This document shows, piece after piece, positions 16,744-20,820 of a stretch of DNA of 25,783 nt. Position numbers and translations under genes: made by a program. The stretch lies in contig JAUWYR010000034.1 of the NCBI GenBank assembly GCA_030615745.1, positions 1-25,783 on the forward strand, read 5' to 3'. This DNA is from Candidatus Zixiibacteriota bacterium (GTDB taxonomy: Bacteria; Zixibacteria; MSB-5A5; SM23-73-2). Within the stretch, counting starts at the first letter, position 1. Each line of letters begins with the position of its first letter. The notes beneath the pieces were generated by a model. That model saw only the letters and a list, made by a program, of their open reading frames with translations, searched no databases and had not been told where the DNA came from.

Positions 16744-17957
16744 TCTTCAGTGAGCTTCTTCAGCTTAGTATTAGTTCTTTGCTGGTTAACAAGGTCCGTT
16801 CTTTTCTGACCATGCTGGGGATAATAATCGGCGTAGCCGCAGTTATTACCATGATATCCCTTGGTCAGGGAGCCAAAAAAACGGTATCTGACAGGCTGGA
16901 GGCATTAGGAACCAATCTTATATACATCCGGTCAGGAGCTCCTCATACAAGACGGGTTAGGGGGGCAGCAGGAACTCTGCAGCGATTGGATGAAAAAGAC
17001 TTAAAGAGACTTAAAGCCGAATGTACAACCGTGGATCATATCGTGCCGGAGATTCAAGGGTCCCAGCAGGTGATTTACGGTAATTTAAACTGGAACACCA
17101 CAATAATCGGCACCAGTCCGGAATACTTCGAGCTGAGAAATTTCAAAATTGCCCAAGGTGAAAAATTTACCCACCGCGATGCAAATGCACTTAGCCGAGT
17201 TGTGGTTATCGGGCCCAAGGTGGCTGAGAATATTTTTGAAAATGTTAATCCGGTGGGCAAATTCATAAGAATTGGACGAATGAGATTTAGAGTTATCGGT
17301 GTGACTCAATCCAAGGGGATATCCGGAGGCTGGCTCGATTATGATGACATTGCACTGGTTCCTTATACAACCGCCCAAAAACGAATCTTTGGCATAGACC
17401 ATTTAAACCGCCTTATCGCCCGTTTAAAAGATGAGACCATGGTTCAAGCCACCTATTTGGAAATCGAAAAAATTCTCAGGAGATCTCACCGTCTCCGGCC
17501 TGACCAAGACAATGATTTCTTTATCCAATCACAGTCAGATTTCACTGCAGCCAGAGAGGAGACCGCCCAGACTCTTACCTATCTTTTAGCAGGAGTGGCG
17601 TTGGTATCGTTGATAGTAGGCGGTATAGGGATAATGAACATAATGCTGGTCTCGGTAACGGAACGAACACGGGAAATCGGCGTTCGTATGGCAGTGGGAG
17701 CTAGACGCTTAGATATTTTGACTCAATTTGTAATGGAAGCTGTCAGCCTGTCCTTGTTGGGTGGGATTATGGGTATATTTGTGGGCGTAGGCGGGTCCTA
17801 CGCATTGACAGAGTTTTTCGGCTGGAGCACTTTAATTGCGCCTGAGGCGGTAGCCTTGTCGTTTTTATTCGCTTTTGCAGTTGGTATCTTTTTCGGCATC
17901 TACCCCGCGCGCAAAGCCTCGCTTTTGGATCCGATTGAGGCGTTGAGGTATGAGTAA
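16740..17957 (+). CDS. ABC transporter permease, MacB/FtsX type, without ATPase domain
   Basis: This 405-residue permease has the MacB topology: one N-terminal membrane helix (about 20-42: FLTMLGIIIGVAAVITMISLG), a large periplasmic MacB_PCD domain (about 50-260) and three C-terminal helices in an FtsX domain, with the family block ERTREIGVRMAVGARRLDILTQFV and the ending PARKASLLDPIEALRYE. Unlike Escherichia coli MacB, it lacks the fused N-terminal ATPase, and no separate ATP-binding gene lies beside it, though three-gene adaptor-ATPase-permease loci are the usual pattern. Its stop is TAA at 17955-17957. The last 117 bases and the downstream flank recur at 20619. It may export lipoproteins, peptides or drugs; the substrate is unknown. 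Confidence 0.88.
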   Translation: MIFSELLQLSISSLLVNKVRSFLTMLGIIIGVAAVITMISLGQGAKKTVSDRLEALGTNLIYIRSGAPHTRRVRGAAGTLQRLDEKDLKRLKAECTTVDHIVPEIQGSQQVIYGNLNWNTTIIGTSPEYFELRNFKIAQGEKFTHRDANALSRVVVIGPKVAENIFENVNPVGKFIRIGRMRFRVIGVTQSKGISGGWLDYDDIALVPYTTAQKRIFGIDHLNRLIARLKDETMVQATYLEIEKILRRSHRLRPDQDNDFFIQSQSDFTAAREETAQTLTYLLAGVALVSLIVGGIGIMNIMLVSVTERTREIGVRMAVGARRLDILTQFVMEAVSLSLLGGIMGIFVGVGGSYALTEFFGWSTLIAPEAVALSFLFAFAVGIFFGIYPARKASLLDPIEALRYE

Positions 17958-18042
17958 AACCGTGAGAGATTTTGAGATGTGGAGGTGGAGCTGTCAACTG
18001 GAGTCTGGTGAGAAGACACACTTAAGTGCGACTCTGGGTCTA
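17841..18042 (+). repeat. macB 3'-end repeat, copy 1
   Basis: From 17841 to about 17988 this matches 20619-20766 with only about four differences, covering the last 39 codons of the permease, its stop and about 30 bases beyond. Weaker similarity (about 60 percent by eye) continues to 18042/20820. The two copies are direct repeats flanking the integron-like segment. Confidence 0.85.
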
Positions 18043-18268: not shown

Positions 18269-18305
18269 GAACGCGTTTTCGTTCCATTGCATGCCATTGT
18301 TAGGC
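18269..18305 (-). repeat. Decayed attC-like site
   Basis: On the minus strand this begins GCCTAAC (the RYYYAAC core of an attC R'' box), then AATGGCATGCAATGG and a small hairpin GAACG-AAAACG-CGTTC. That resembles the left half of a short integron attC. The expected right-hand GTTRRRY box is absent or degraded in the bases that follow (18240-18268). It lies in the same orientation as the complete attC at 19077-19209. Confidence 0.35.
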
Positions 18306-18503
18306 CATCTCTTTACTTCATCACCACACTGTTTTCCTGAATAGTTGATTTCGTTTTTGAATTCAAGATGATATGTAAATATTTTTTATATTACAATTAA
18401 AGTCATTTTAGTTTATAACAGAAGCTGTAAATCACAGACAAACATAATGCTGATTATCGGCAGTGATATGGTGTCATGCCGTTTTTTTCTACTAACATGG
18501 TAG
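18306..18503. other. Non-coding segment upstream of the recombinase fragment
   Basis: About 200 AT-rich bases without a frame that continues the recombinase toward its missing N-terminus. I see no recognisable remnant here, so the truncation point is close to 18504. Confidence 0.35.
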
Positions 18504-18947
18504 TTGCTAAATCTGGAGTGGGTTGACATAGATTTTAAAAGAGGAAAGATCAAGATCAGGAGAAAGGAGTTCTGGATACCTAAGACCGGAGAGAGAGAAA
18601 TTCCGATAAACAGAGGAATGTTTGACCTGCTTCAAAAACTGAAAAAACAGAACGTGATGAACAGCAATTTTGTTTTTCATGGTATAGACGGGAAAAAATT
18701 GAAAATAAAGCTCAGGGAGGAACTAATCAGGATCACAAGGAAATGCGGTTTCCCTGACGTGACGAAAATACATTCGTTGAGGCACACATTTGCTAGCCAT
18801 TTGATTATGAAAGGAGTTGACCTGCCAACGGTGCAGAAGTTGATGGGACACTCTGACATTCAAACCACTATGATGTACTCTCATCTTGCCCCTGATCACC
18901 TGGTTGACGCTGTGGACAAGTTGGATTTTGAAAACCAGAAAAAATAG
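18504..18947 (+). pseudogene. 5'-truncated tyrosine recombinase (phage integrase family)
   Basis: This frame holds the C-terminal catalytic domain of a XerC/D-like tyrosine recombinase of 147 residues. Visible catalytic residues are the beta-hairpin lysine (PKTGE, Lys27), HSLRHTFASHL (His90, Arg93), GHSDIQTT (His116) and the nucleophile in MMYSHL (Tyr125). The N-terminal core-binding domain and the first catalytic arginine, normally just before LLNLEW, are missing: a TAG precedes the TTG at 18504. It therefore cannot recombine DNA alone. It may be what is left of the enzyme that inserted the island at tRNA-Ser. Its strand is opposite to the integron remnant, so it is probably of separate origin. 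Confidence 0.8.
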
Positions 18948-19076
18948 GTGTGACTACCAACCTCCTGAAACTCAGTTTATCATAAAATTGTGATAGTTAA
19001 GACTTAATCTGACATTTCGAAAGGTAGTCTTAGCTAAGCTCTATGACTGCAAGAACGCCCTGTTGGTAGCCGATCT

Positions 19077-19209
19077 GCCCAACGATTGAATTGAGCGGAC
19101 GCAAACATTAAGAGAGAAAGACTTTAGAAACCCTCAGACTTACAACAAAGCCACCAACAGTCCAAATTTGACCGCACTGTTTGCGTTCCGCCCGAATGAG
19201 TGGTTAGGC
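19077..19209 (-). repeat. Integron attC recombination site
   Basis: Read on the minus strand, the site opens with GCCTAAC (19209-19203) and closes with GTTGGGC (19083-19077), matching the R'' RYYYAAC and R' GTTRRRY boxes. Inside, imperfectly inverted arms run CACTCATTCGGGCGGAACGC... and ...GCGTCCGCTCAATTCAATC; they pair over about 30 bases with unpaired or mismatched positions, around a non-symmetric centre of about 70 bases. Low sequence conservation with conserved ends and imperfect long arms is the attC hallmark, and the length of 133 bp is in the normal range. It follows the 185-residue gene on the same strand, as in a gene cassette. Confidence 0.75.
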
Positions 19210-19983
19210 AAACTCAGGCAGTTTATAATTTTATGGACGTCCCCATCCTCCGTCCCTTTTATATCTTTCCTGAAATCTTTCCGACAACCCTTCAACAATT
19301 TCAAATTAAGTGACCAAAAATGAGCTTACGTCTTACTCACTTTGGACGTCTCTTTCTGTAATAATCTAGAGATTCGCGCAAATAGCGTTCCAAATTGGGA
19401 ATATAAGCTTCTACAATTTTCAGTGAGGGTGCCTCAAATGTGGCTGTAAATTCACGTGACTCAGGGTCACTCCAAAACCCGAGACTTCCTTCACCACCAG
19501 TAGGTAGGTGACCAGGTCCCTCGATTTGTGTGGTGATTCTGAAATGTACGACTCGATCTCGCCACCAAAACAAAGCCCAGGCGGGTATCGATAGTTCATA
19601 CCACTTATGCTCCGTATGCCAACTAGTATCTGTGGGATCTGGATAAAATCCGACTTCGTCCGTAATCACGTTTGCCCAGCTGGAGCCAATAAGCCTATCG
19701 ATCAAGACTCGGTAGCGAGCACTTGCACCATATGGTTTTTTGTACGTGAACTCCATTGGCAGTCTGAGAATGTTTTGAATACCGCCTTTAAATGTTTTCT
19801 CGTTATCATTGTGCCACTGCGTTTCCCAACTCCAGAACTCACTTACAAGGGTTGCTATGGGGTGATCTCCCCAATTATGTATTACAGCAGTCATTACAAA
19901 CCTCCTTTCTTTGTGTTTTTAACATCTCTAAAATGGAAAGCAGGACAAACGTCGAACCACACCGACTCCTACTTTCCGTCTAA
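19083..19983 (-). mobile_element. Integron gene cassette
   Basis: The 901-bp unit runs from a presumed G/TTAGAC crossover (minus strand, 19984/19983) to the G/TTGGGC crossover in the attC at 19083. It contains a single gene (19337-19894) in the usual orientation with a short leader, strong ribosome-binding site and a 3' attC. This is the standard anatomy of a mobile gene cassette. Confidence 0.65.
19337..19894 (-). CDS. Unknown cassette-encoded protein, Trp/Arg-rich, 185 residues
   Basis: The frame is complete and starts at ATG 19894 behind an excellent ribosome-binding site (AAAGGAGG, 7 bases before the ATG). The product is soluble, with no signal peptide or membrane helix, and unusually rich in tryptophan (NWGDHP, FWSWETQWHND, SSWANV, SWHTEHKWYELSIPAWALFWWRD). 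Alternating hydrophobic strands (RVVHFRITTQIEG; REFTATFEAPSLKIVEAYI) suggest a beta-sandwich, and the C-terminus is basic and helical (LERYLRESLDYYRKRRPK). I do not recognise the family. Its position before an attC and after a presumed attI makes it the cassette gene; most such genes are of unknown function. Its base composition looks less AT-rich than the flanking genes. Confidence 0.75.
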   Translation of the reverse strand: MTAVIHNWGDHPIATLVSEFWSWETQWHNDNEKTFKGGIQNILRLPMEFTYKKPYGASARYRVLIDRLIGSSWANVITDEVGFYPDPTDTSWHTEHKWYELSIPAWALFWWRDRVVHFRITTQIEGPGHLPTGGEGSLGFWSDPESREFTATFEAPSLKIVEAYIPNLERYLRESLDYYRKRRPK

Positions 19984-19989
19984 CAATGG

Positions 19990-20006
19990 TTATACAGTCT
20001 GTATAA
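19990..20006. promoter_or_regulatory. 17-bp palindrome, copy 1 (TTATACAGTCTGTATAA)
   Basis: A perfect 8-bp inverted repeat around a single T. The same palindrome with central A occurs 135 bp away at 20125-20141; each is the exact reverse complement of the other, and both are preceded by GG. This one sits about 95 bp upstream of the cassette gene start and next to the presumed attI core. A dimeric DNA-binding protein is the obvious reader; it is not the Escherichia coli LexA box, whose half-sites point the other way. Confidence 0.6.
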
Positions 20007-20124
20007 TACGGGAAACACAGGCTGTTTCTTTCAGTATAAGAAGTTCTCGTATCTTCTTGTTTATGTGCGAAACGCTTTTCATCTCAACGACTTACCTCCA
20101 CATGTTGCATCAGGCAACTCGGGG

Positions 20125-20141
20125 TTATACAGACTGTATAA
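20125..20141. promoter_or_regulatory. 17-bp palindrome, copy 2 (TTATACAGACTGTATAA)
   Basis: The second copy of the palindrome begins 6 bp beyond the stop codon of the IntI remnant. Two such sites 135 bp apart could be paired operators controlling the cassette promoter, or integrase-accessory sites. Confidence 0.6.
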
Positions 20142-20147
20142 ACCGGT

Positions 20148-20365
20148 TCAGAGTTCATCGACCGGGCTTCTCACGCCGTGGCCTCCCTTGTTTAGCACAT
20201 GGGTGTAGACCATTGTCGTCTTTACGTCCTCGCGAGCCCAAAGTACTTGACGGTGCCAACATGATTAGCAGCCTCATAGTAAAAGAGTGTGCTCGACCTT
20301 TGCTTCTCATCGAGTATTTCTGAGACATGTCCCTTTCTCGCTGCACTCCTAATCGCATGCATCAT
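20148..20365 (-). pseudogene. intI: Integron integrase (IntI) C-terminal remnant
   Basis: On the minus strand the final 27 codons before TGA (20148-20150) read [14 protein letters not shown] then [13 protein letters not shown]. This is the characteristic C-terminal tail of integron integrases, with the nucleophilic tyrosine in VYTHV and the GGxGVRSP ending that XerC/D and phage enzymes lack. Upstream the match decays: [23 protein letters not shown] and similar blocks align with the IntI segment before GHEDV, but the HxxR motif is lost and at least one frameshift occurs near 20235. The remainder (about 240 residues) is gone. It points the same way as the cassette, the arrangement described for Treponema denticola and Rhodopirellula rather than the usual divergent one. 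Confidence 0.7.
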
Positions 20366-20499
20366 TTACTCGCCAACCCAAAACATCCCTGGACATATTA
20401 ATTATAACCCGATTTCTCTCGAAATCAATTCTGTTTATATAACATATTATAATCATTTATGCAATCTTGTCAAGCACTTTTTTAAATTATTTTCCCGAT

Positions 20500-20618
20500 T
20501 GCCAATGTTCGATTTGGATAATTGGCTTTCGAAGTACAACCAGCAAAGGATCCATGACGGGAAGCATTGCTTTGGGAAGACGCCAATGCATACCTTTTTC
20601 GGATTCAATACCTTTCTG
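20500..20618 (+). pseudogene. IS481-type transposase C-terminal remnant, fused in frame to macB repeat
   Basis: The frame around 20508-20600 reads FDLDNWLSKYNQQRIHDGKH then CFGKTPMHTFF, matching the end of IS481-like rve transposases (a DLDxWLxxYNxxRxHQGxxCxGxTPMxTF pattern). Everything upstream, including the catalytic DDE residues, is missing. At 20619 the frame passes without a stop into the permease C-terminal sequence, ending at 20735. The hybrid frame could start upstream but has no convincing ribosome-binding site; I treat it as a recombination scar. Confidence 0.65.
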
Positions 20619-20820
20619 CCTGAGGCGGTAGCCTTGTCGTTTTTATTCGCTTTTTCAGTTGGTATCTTTTTCGGCATCTACCCCGCGCGCAAAGCTTCGC
20701 TTTTGGATCCGATTGAGGCGTTGCGGTATGAGTAAAACTGTGAGAGATTTTGAGATGTGGAGGTGGAGAGGCCAACTGGAACTCGGTCACAAGAAAAGTT
20801 TGAATGCAATTTTGTGTCCA
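20619..20820 (+). repeat. macB 3'-end repeat, copy 2
   Basis: This carries the last 39 codons of a MacB-type permease (PEAVALSFLFAFSVGIFF..., stop at 20733-20735) and downstream bases homologous to 17841-18042. Within the coding part two changes are synonymous and one changes Ala to Ser. Beyond about 20766 the copies differ much more, which fits a second permease paralogue rather than a very recent exact duplication. Confidence 0.85.

Follow-up and report, generated by a model that had tools for sequence, protein, structure and literature searches.

Gene cassettes lying downstream of a co-oriented integron integrase gene, intI, have been described in Treponema, and in T. brennaborense an R-type site (GTTAGGT) is found between intI and the first attC (PMC3607928). 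In archaeal integrons attI lies immediately downstream of intI and is semi-conserved across phyla, according to PMC9668308, which also uses the term CALIN for clusters of attC sites without intI. About a third of the intI genes surveyed in 2008 were broken, and such intI pseudogenes have been called 'pseudo-integrons' (PMC2426708). Here we describe a locus at positions 18276 to 20481 of a contig from a Candidatus Zixiibacteriota bacterium. The window, i.e. the whole stretch of DNA that was analyzed, is the entire contig C54 (25,783 bases) of a 2.28-Mb genome (G000; 74 contigs, 98.6% complete), and positions are on the minus strand unless stated. Very probably the window carries the decayed remains of a co-oriented ('inverted') chromosomal integron from which the integrase is gone, a reading drawn from the DNA itself, that is from gene order, homology, the deletion, the attI boxes, attC and orientation.

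The arrangement is the same as in the chromosomal integrons of T. denticola and its relatives, but these are mostly intact and have long arrays, whereas in the window intI is deleted and little of an array is left. With the archaeal integrons it shares an attI directly after intI, although the host domain differs. As in 'pseudo-integrons' intI is broken, but here nearly the whole open reading frame (ORF) is gone and the locus is recognisable mainly by its attI and attC. It resembles a CALIN in having a cassette and attC without an integrase; however, a CALIN has at least two attC sites and neither intI nor attI, whereas the window keeps attI and the intI ends and has one complete attC only. 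The parts of the locus are listed below, where G010 is a genome of the same order as the window genome and C1 is another contig of G000.

20446..20473, minus strand: sigma-70-like promoter of the former intI, TTGACA-16 nt-TATAAT, read from the sequence
20292..20481, minus strand: intI leader and intI start, ATG at 20328, MSQKYSMRSKGR; DNA identity to G010
20148..20249, minus strand: intI 3' end, codons ~308-340 and stop; TIGR02249; 87% DNA identity to the G000:C1 relic
19978..20141, minus strand: attI, with box 1 dyad 20141-20125, box 2 from 20039, box 3 dyad 20006-19990 and core GTTAGAC 19984-19978
19083..19983, minus strand: first gene cassette, 901 bp, G/TT to G/TT, bounded by the attI core and the attC R' site
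19337..19894, minus strand: cassette gene, 185 amino acids, AGGAGG ahead of the ATG, no known relative
19077..19209, minus strand: attC, 133 bp, R'' GCCTAAC, R' GTTGGGC, stem GGCGG(A)ACGCAAAC/GTTTGCGTCCGC, one extrahelical A
18276..18305, minus strand: probable second attC, 5' half, R'' GCCTAAC, spacer and L''; half-site score

A first-pass annotation had proposed an IntI-type C-terminus with its stop at 20148, and this was borne out. The translation of the roughly 33 codons at 20249-20151, followed by the stop at 20150-20148, matched the integron integrase model TIGR02249 (38.5 bits, E 8.6e-10) up to the last position of the model, while no Xer model was matched at E<=10; IntI models were the only ones to fit, and neither XerC/XerD nor phage integrases matched better. 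At the other end, 20481-20408, including the promoter, shares 81% identity with the sequence ahead of the G010 intI, 20356-20292 is 86% identical to the G010 leader and intI start, and the first 12 IntI residues (MSQKYSMRSKGR) from the ATG at 20328 can still be matched. The ORF from this ATG is now 57 amino acids long and enters a frameshifted version of the C-terminal part. Since a recognisable intI start and a recognisable intI end are both in place, intI is, as judged by these alignments, deleted internally and in place, with codons ~13-307 (about 295 codons) lost. What is present is therefore an inactivated remnant, with both ends kept and an IntI-specific C-terminus. The earlier annotation is extended here by the intI promoter with its leader and the 12 initial codons (20481-20292), by the three boxes of attI and by a plus-strand Xer-like fragment (see below).

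The attI that had been presumed from GTTAGAC was further supported by a second copy on contig C1, to which the region is 80-87% identical. The GTTRRRY-type core (19984-19978) thus lies beside the intI remnant, together with boxes homologous to those of other integrons. A complete cassette with a 185-residue gene had also been annotated, and the ORF at 19894-19337 agrees with this. To score attC sites we used a home-made, structure-aware scorer that leaves the loop length free and whose training set was 16 attC sites of other loci, with 200 dinucleotide shuffles of the window as controls; other attC sites score 25-75. A simpler scanner gave weaker separation (23 vs. a shuffle maximum of 25.5), and an Rfam scan gave no match. 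The 133-bp attC previously placed at 19077-19209 reached 54.6 on the minus strand, as compared to 29.9 on the plus strand and a shuffle maximum of 29.5. Asymmetric features, among them the extrahelical base, account for this strand difference, which therefore sets the orientation of attC, namely that of the cassette gene and intI. The cassette accordingly has a structured and oriented attC. Of the two findings that would have spoken against the first-pass annotation, a C-terminus closer to XerD or phage integrases and a missing attC, neither was made, the second as judged by the home-made scorer. The decayed second site held up in part: its 5' half at 18305 had the best half-site score of the window (20.8), above the 95% value of the shuffles (17.1) and just below their maximum (21.2), and is by its sequence probably a second attC.

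The second relic (G000:C1:18508-18757, i.e. L025:8508-8757, minus strand) consists of an intI 3' end and attI, and shares with the window 97 bp of the intI end (87%) and the following attI region (80%). Its IntI end gave 56.6 bits with TIGR02249 vs. 28-32 bits with Xer models. A short interspersed palindromic repeat, of which another copy lies about 1 kb upstream, truncates the intI of this relic, and the attI is followed by a 76-amino-acid ORF and two radical SAM/SPASM genes. Contig C1 also encodes a dockerin-rich protein, which may point to Zixibacteria. In G010 intI is frameshifted but otherwise complete, split into two ORFs of which the larger part gave 361.7 bits, and GTTAGGC is found about 170 bp after it, near the contig end. 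Evidently, the order intI, attI, cassette is common to all three loci, with cassettes downstream of intI and in the same direction. This collinearity with the G010 locus and the C1 relic is in line with the earlier proposal of a co-oriented integron that has lost its integrase.

We then compared 80 related loci with named organisms, fetched with the G010 IntI as query. Where attC could be found, loci with an IntI at least 63% identical nearly always had it downstream of intI, while the cyanobacterial and Chloroflexi IntI had attC upstream. A tree of 78 IntI proteins contained a 46-protein clade (support 100/95) with 15 downstream-attC rows, including G010, and 0 upstream-attC rows; two further downstream-attC loci, with weak attC scores, fell outside it. 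The clade covers Planctomycetota, Chlorobiota, Nitrospirota, Thermodesulfobacteriota, Actinomycetota, Spirochaetota and other phyla, so that co-orientation, said by the first-pass annotation to occur in a few lineages only, instead marks one large IntI clade. The G010 IntI lies within it; the window fragment is too short to be placed in the tree, and its DNA is nearest to that of the co-oriented loci L084, L055 and L054. The window relic is of a known kind, the "inverted" integron.

Some observations weigh against this interpretation. Little of intI is left (two pieces with about 45 codons in all), and homology to the G010 intI was not significant at 20291-20231 (425/1000 shuffles), which is why the bounds of the deletion, ~codon 13 and ~codon 307, are approximate. 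An Infernal model built here (R1, 16 attC sites) did not detect the 133-bp attC, as it was trained on short-loop sites; it was dropped as unsuitable for long-loop attC in favour of the structure-aware scorer. The 3' half of the second attC was not found in the window, leaving half a site only. The 185-residue cassette protein had no match in Pfam, NCBIfam, PHROGs, PDB, plasmids, viral contigs or relatives, and the cassette is therefore recognised by its sites alone; a single-sequence AlphaFold2 model of the protein was too poor for structure search (mean predicted local distance difference test score, pLDDT, 49.6). Finally, the estimated contamination of G010 is 7%, so its locus may belong to another genome.

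The borders of the island may bear on how the relic came to lie where it is. Three plus-strand features are of interest here.

17840..18002, plus strand: macB 3' end, left direct-repeat copy, 163 bp, 96% identity to the right copy
20618..20780, plus strand: macB 3' end, right direct-repeat copy, 163 bp, 96% identity to the left copy
18504..18947, plus strand: unrelated Xer-like tyrosine recombinase, C-terminal 147 codons, between the two attC sites; NF040815 1e-23, PF00589 6e-23

The repeat comprises the last 120 bp of macB and 43 bp beyond, and flanks the integron relic on both sides. Possibly, an integrative element inserted at the macB 3' end and left the 163-bp repeats, with the Xer-like fragment as the remnant of its integrase and the integron relic as cargo, an explanation that is compatible with a decayed co-oriented integron but that we regard as unlikely on balance. 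Besides the repeat at both borders, it draws on the recombinase fragment, which belongs to a multi-copy family of the phylum (full-length relatives of 365-395 amino acids, 60-71% identical) and lies inside the island nearer the left border, and on G001, a genome of the same genus without macAB upstream of the neighbouring regulator. However, the fragment is truncated and sits between attC sites, and could equally belong to a second cassette or have inserted separately; the repeat may have arisen by plain tandem duplication; and the empty site was not found, G001 being uninformative in this respect as macAB is not there. That the fragment at 18504-18947 could be the lost IntI was ruled out, as XerA/XerC models fit it better than IntI. 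A plus-strand ORF at 20289-20735 holds WLSKYNQQRIHDGKHCFGKTPMHTFFG and is fused to the macB copy (region 20480-20620); by eye WLSKYNQQRIHDGKHCFGKTPMHTFFG resembles the end of an integrase-type transposase, which Pfam did not confirm.

Within 200 bp after intI, the co-oriented relatives carry three boxes homologous to those of the window attI. Box 1 is a TTAT...ATAA dyad within about 10-25 bp of the intI stop, box 2 is a half-box, TTATAC, and box 3 is a second dyad that starts 29-33 bp after box 2 and runs into the core GTTRRRY. The dyads vary in their inner bases among integrons (ACAG/CTGT, CCGATCCG, AGAAACCAT), and boxes 1 and 3 of the same integron agreed at 6.9 of 11 inner positions vs. 4.64 (sd 0.33) with shuffled partners (31 loci, boxes placed by eye). 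This was further supported by an automatic test on 45 co-oriented loci (12.07 vs. 11.12 of 16 positions, sd 0.15; 0 of 5000 permutations), and the covariation was absent after 31 mostly classical intI genes in the same test (p 0.27). A three-box attI with boxes 1 and 3 covarying within each integron looks new; neither box covariation nor intI-less attI copies were found reported in the parts of PMC9668308 consulted. The signature provides a way to find relics and a handle on integrase-attI recognition in co-oriented integrons.

Unlike simple core sites, the dyads form 17-bp palindromes that are nearly perfect, and could for that reason be operators of a host regulator such as LexA rather than integrase sites. 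We consider this quite improbable, since with up to one mismatch the dyad occurs in the 2.28-Mb genome at the two integron relics only, twice each, its inner bases differ between integrons but agree within one, and box 3 adjoins the recombination core. The confinement of the dyad to the relics makes binding of an integrase likelier than a host-wide operator, and the boxes were presumably bound by IntI.

The first-pass annotation had also allowed for a later rearrangement, in which the intI end of a classical divergent integron was moved or inverted and co-orientation is secondary; although the duplicated macB ends on either side of the island and the foreign recombinase fragment beside it speak for rearrangement nearby, and the same order includes what is probably a classical divergent integron (G008:C101), this is highly implausible because promoter and leader, intI ends, attI and cassette are collinear with G010 and the C1 relic, the spacing from intI end to attI is the same at G000:C1, G010 and a further genome, G012, the leader and intI start are common to G010 and the window, and the nearest IntI relatives are co-oriented. 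The G008 locus itself (L027) has a split, below-cut-off IntI, on whose other side three attC-like sites are found (2501, 3234 and 3871).

For a decayed co-oriented integron the following course can be proposed. intI would originally have been transcribed from the promoter at 20473-20446 toward attI, and IntI would have bound the attI boxes and joined the folded bottom strand of an incoming attC at the G/TT of GTTAGAC, so that captured cassettes came to lie downstream of intI in the same direction; in the past, cassettes were presumably captured at this very attI. The deletion then removed about 295 intI codons and put the ends out of frame, for which reason no integrase can be made at the locus; besides attI and a single cassette, it left one complete attC and half of another. 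As intI preceded attI and had the same direction, a single promoter could serve both integrase and cassettes, and loss of intI would move this promoter nearer to the cassette and stop further excision. About 550 bp now separate the promoter from the ATG of the cassette gene, ahead of which lies a good ribosome-binding site (AGGAGG). As intI lay between promoter and cassettes and its deletion brought the promoter near, the frozen cassette may still be transcribed from the intI promoter.

With TIGR02249 we detected no intact intI in 132 genomes of the phylum; the cut-off was passed in one genome only, G010, where the frameshifted intI is followed by attI. Integron surveys seek intI and attC, and attI without intI therefore go unseen. 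We searched 129 genomes of the phylum with a box 2/box 3 pattern. The pattern is loose, as its reversed control also matched about 20 places, and each match was therefore scored singly. Eleven matches fit known attI sequences at E 3e-8 to 1e-20, as compared to 1e-6 for the best of 1000 random pattern-conforming sequences; 7 of the 18 distinct matches (G045, G095, G105, G110, G114, G117 and G124) were discarded as chance matches, with a best E of at least 0.01. The attI module is thus present as 11 copies in 10 of the 129 genomes (the window, C1, G003, G006, G010, G012, G029, G072, G074, G111 and G127). Next to it a near-complete intI was found at one copy (G010) and an intI end at three (window, C1, G012), and at the remaining 7 of 11 no intI remnant was detected within up to 1.5 kb upstream.

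G003:C42, G006:C11, G029:C75, G072:C96, G074:C65, G111:C94, G127:C36 (L172-L178): intI-less attI box 2/box 3 modules

In G012, 16 or so intI codons are followed by attI, TIR-like cassette genes (assigned by eye) and two attC (42.1 and 38.0), and attC-like sites are found downstream in G003 (score 34.6) and G127 (score 19.8). In G072 and G074, which belong to one genus, the 300 bp that end with attI agree at 99%, and identity drops to 24% in the 33 bp that follow; the break lies exactly after GTTAG. A cassette inserted into a shared attI in the absence of intI would be expected to leave such a break, although the case is only suggestive because the G074 contig ends 33 bp beyond attI, G072 showed no attC within 1 kb, and the genomes are drafts. 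The recurrence of an attI module in a phylum where no intact intI was found looks new, and a literature search, which covered few subscription papers, met no terms for an orphan or intI-less attI. We tentatively propose, while holding it to be more doubtful than probable, that a co-oriented attI outlives intI as a promoter-attI-cassette platform, where the deletion keeps cassette expression and stops excision, and that, as suggested by G072 and G074, orphan attI can still take up new cassettes with the help of a trans-acting integrase. If intI-less attI do still receive cassettes, capture could occur in genomes that are scored as integron-free.

C-terminal partial copies of the recombinase family represented at 18504-18947 are common in the phylum. 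At one locus (L134:1681-8935, in G095:C42) the last ~27-33 bp of the family member's own gene are repeated at 2785, 6552 and 8903, and the repeats bound two cargo modules, one with an nSTAND NTPase of 985 amino acids and one with a Hypoth_Ymh protein and an orphan, which looks as if the 3' end of the recombinase gene were an insertion point for cargo.
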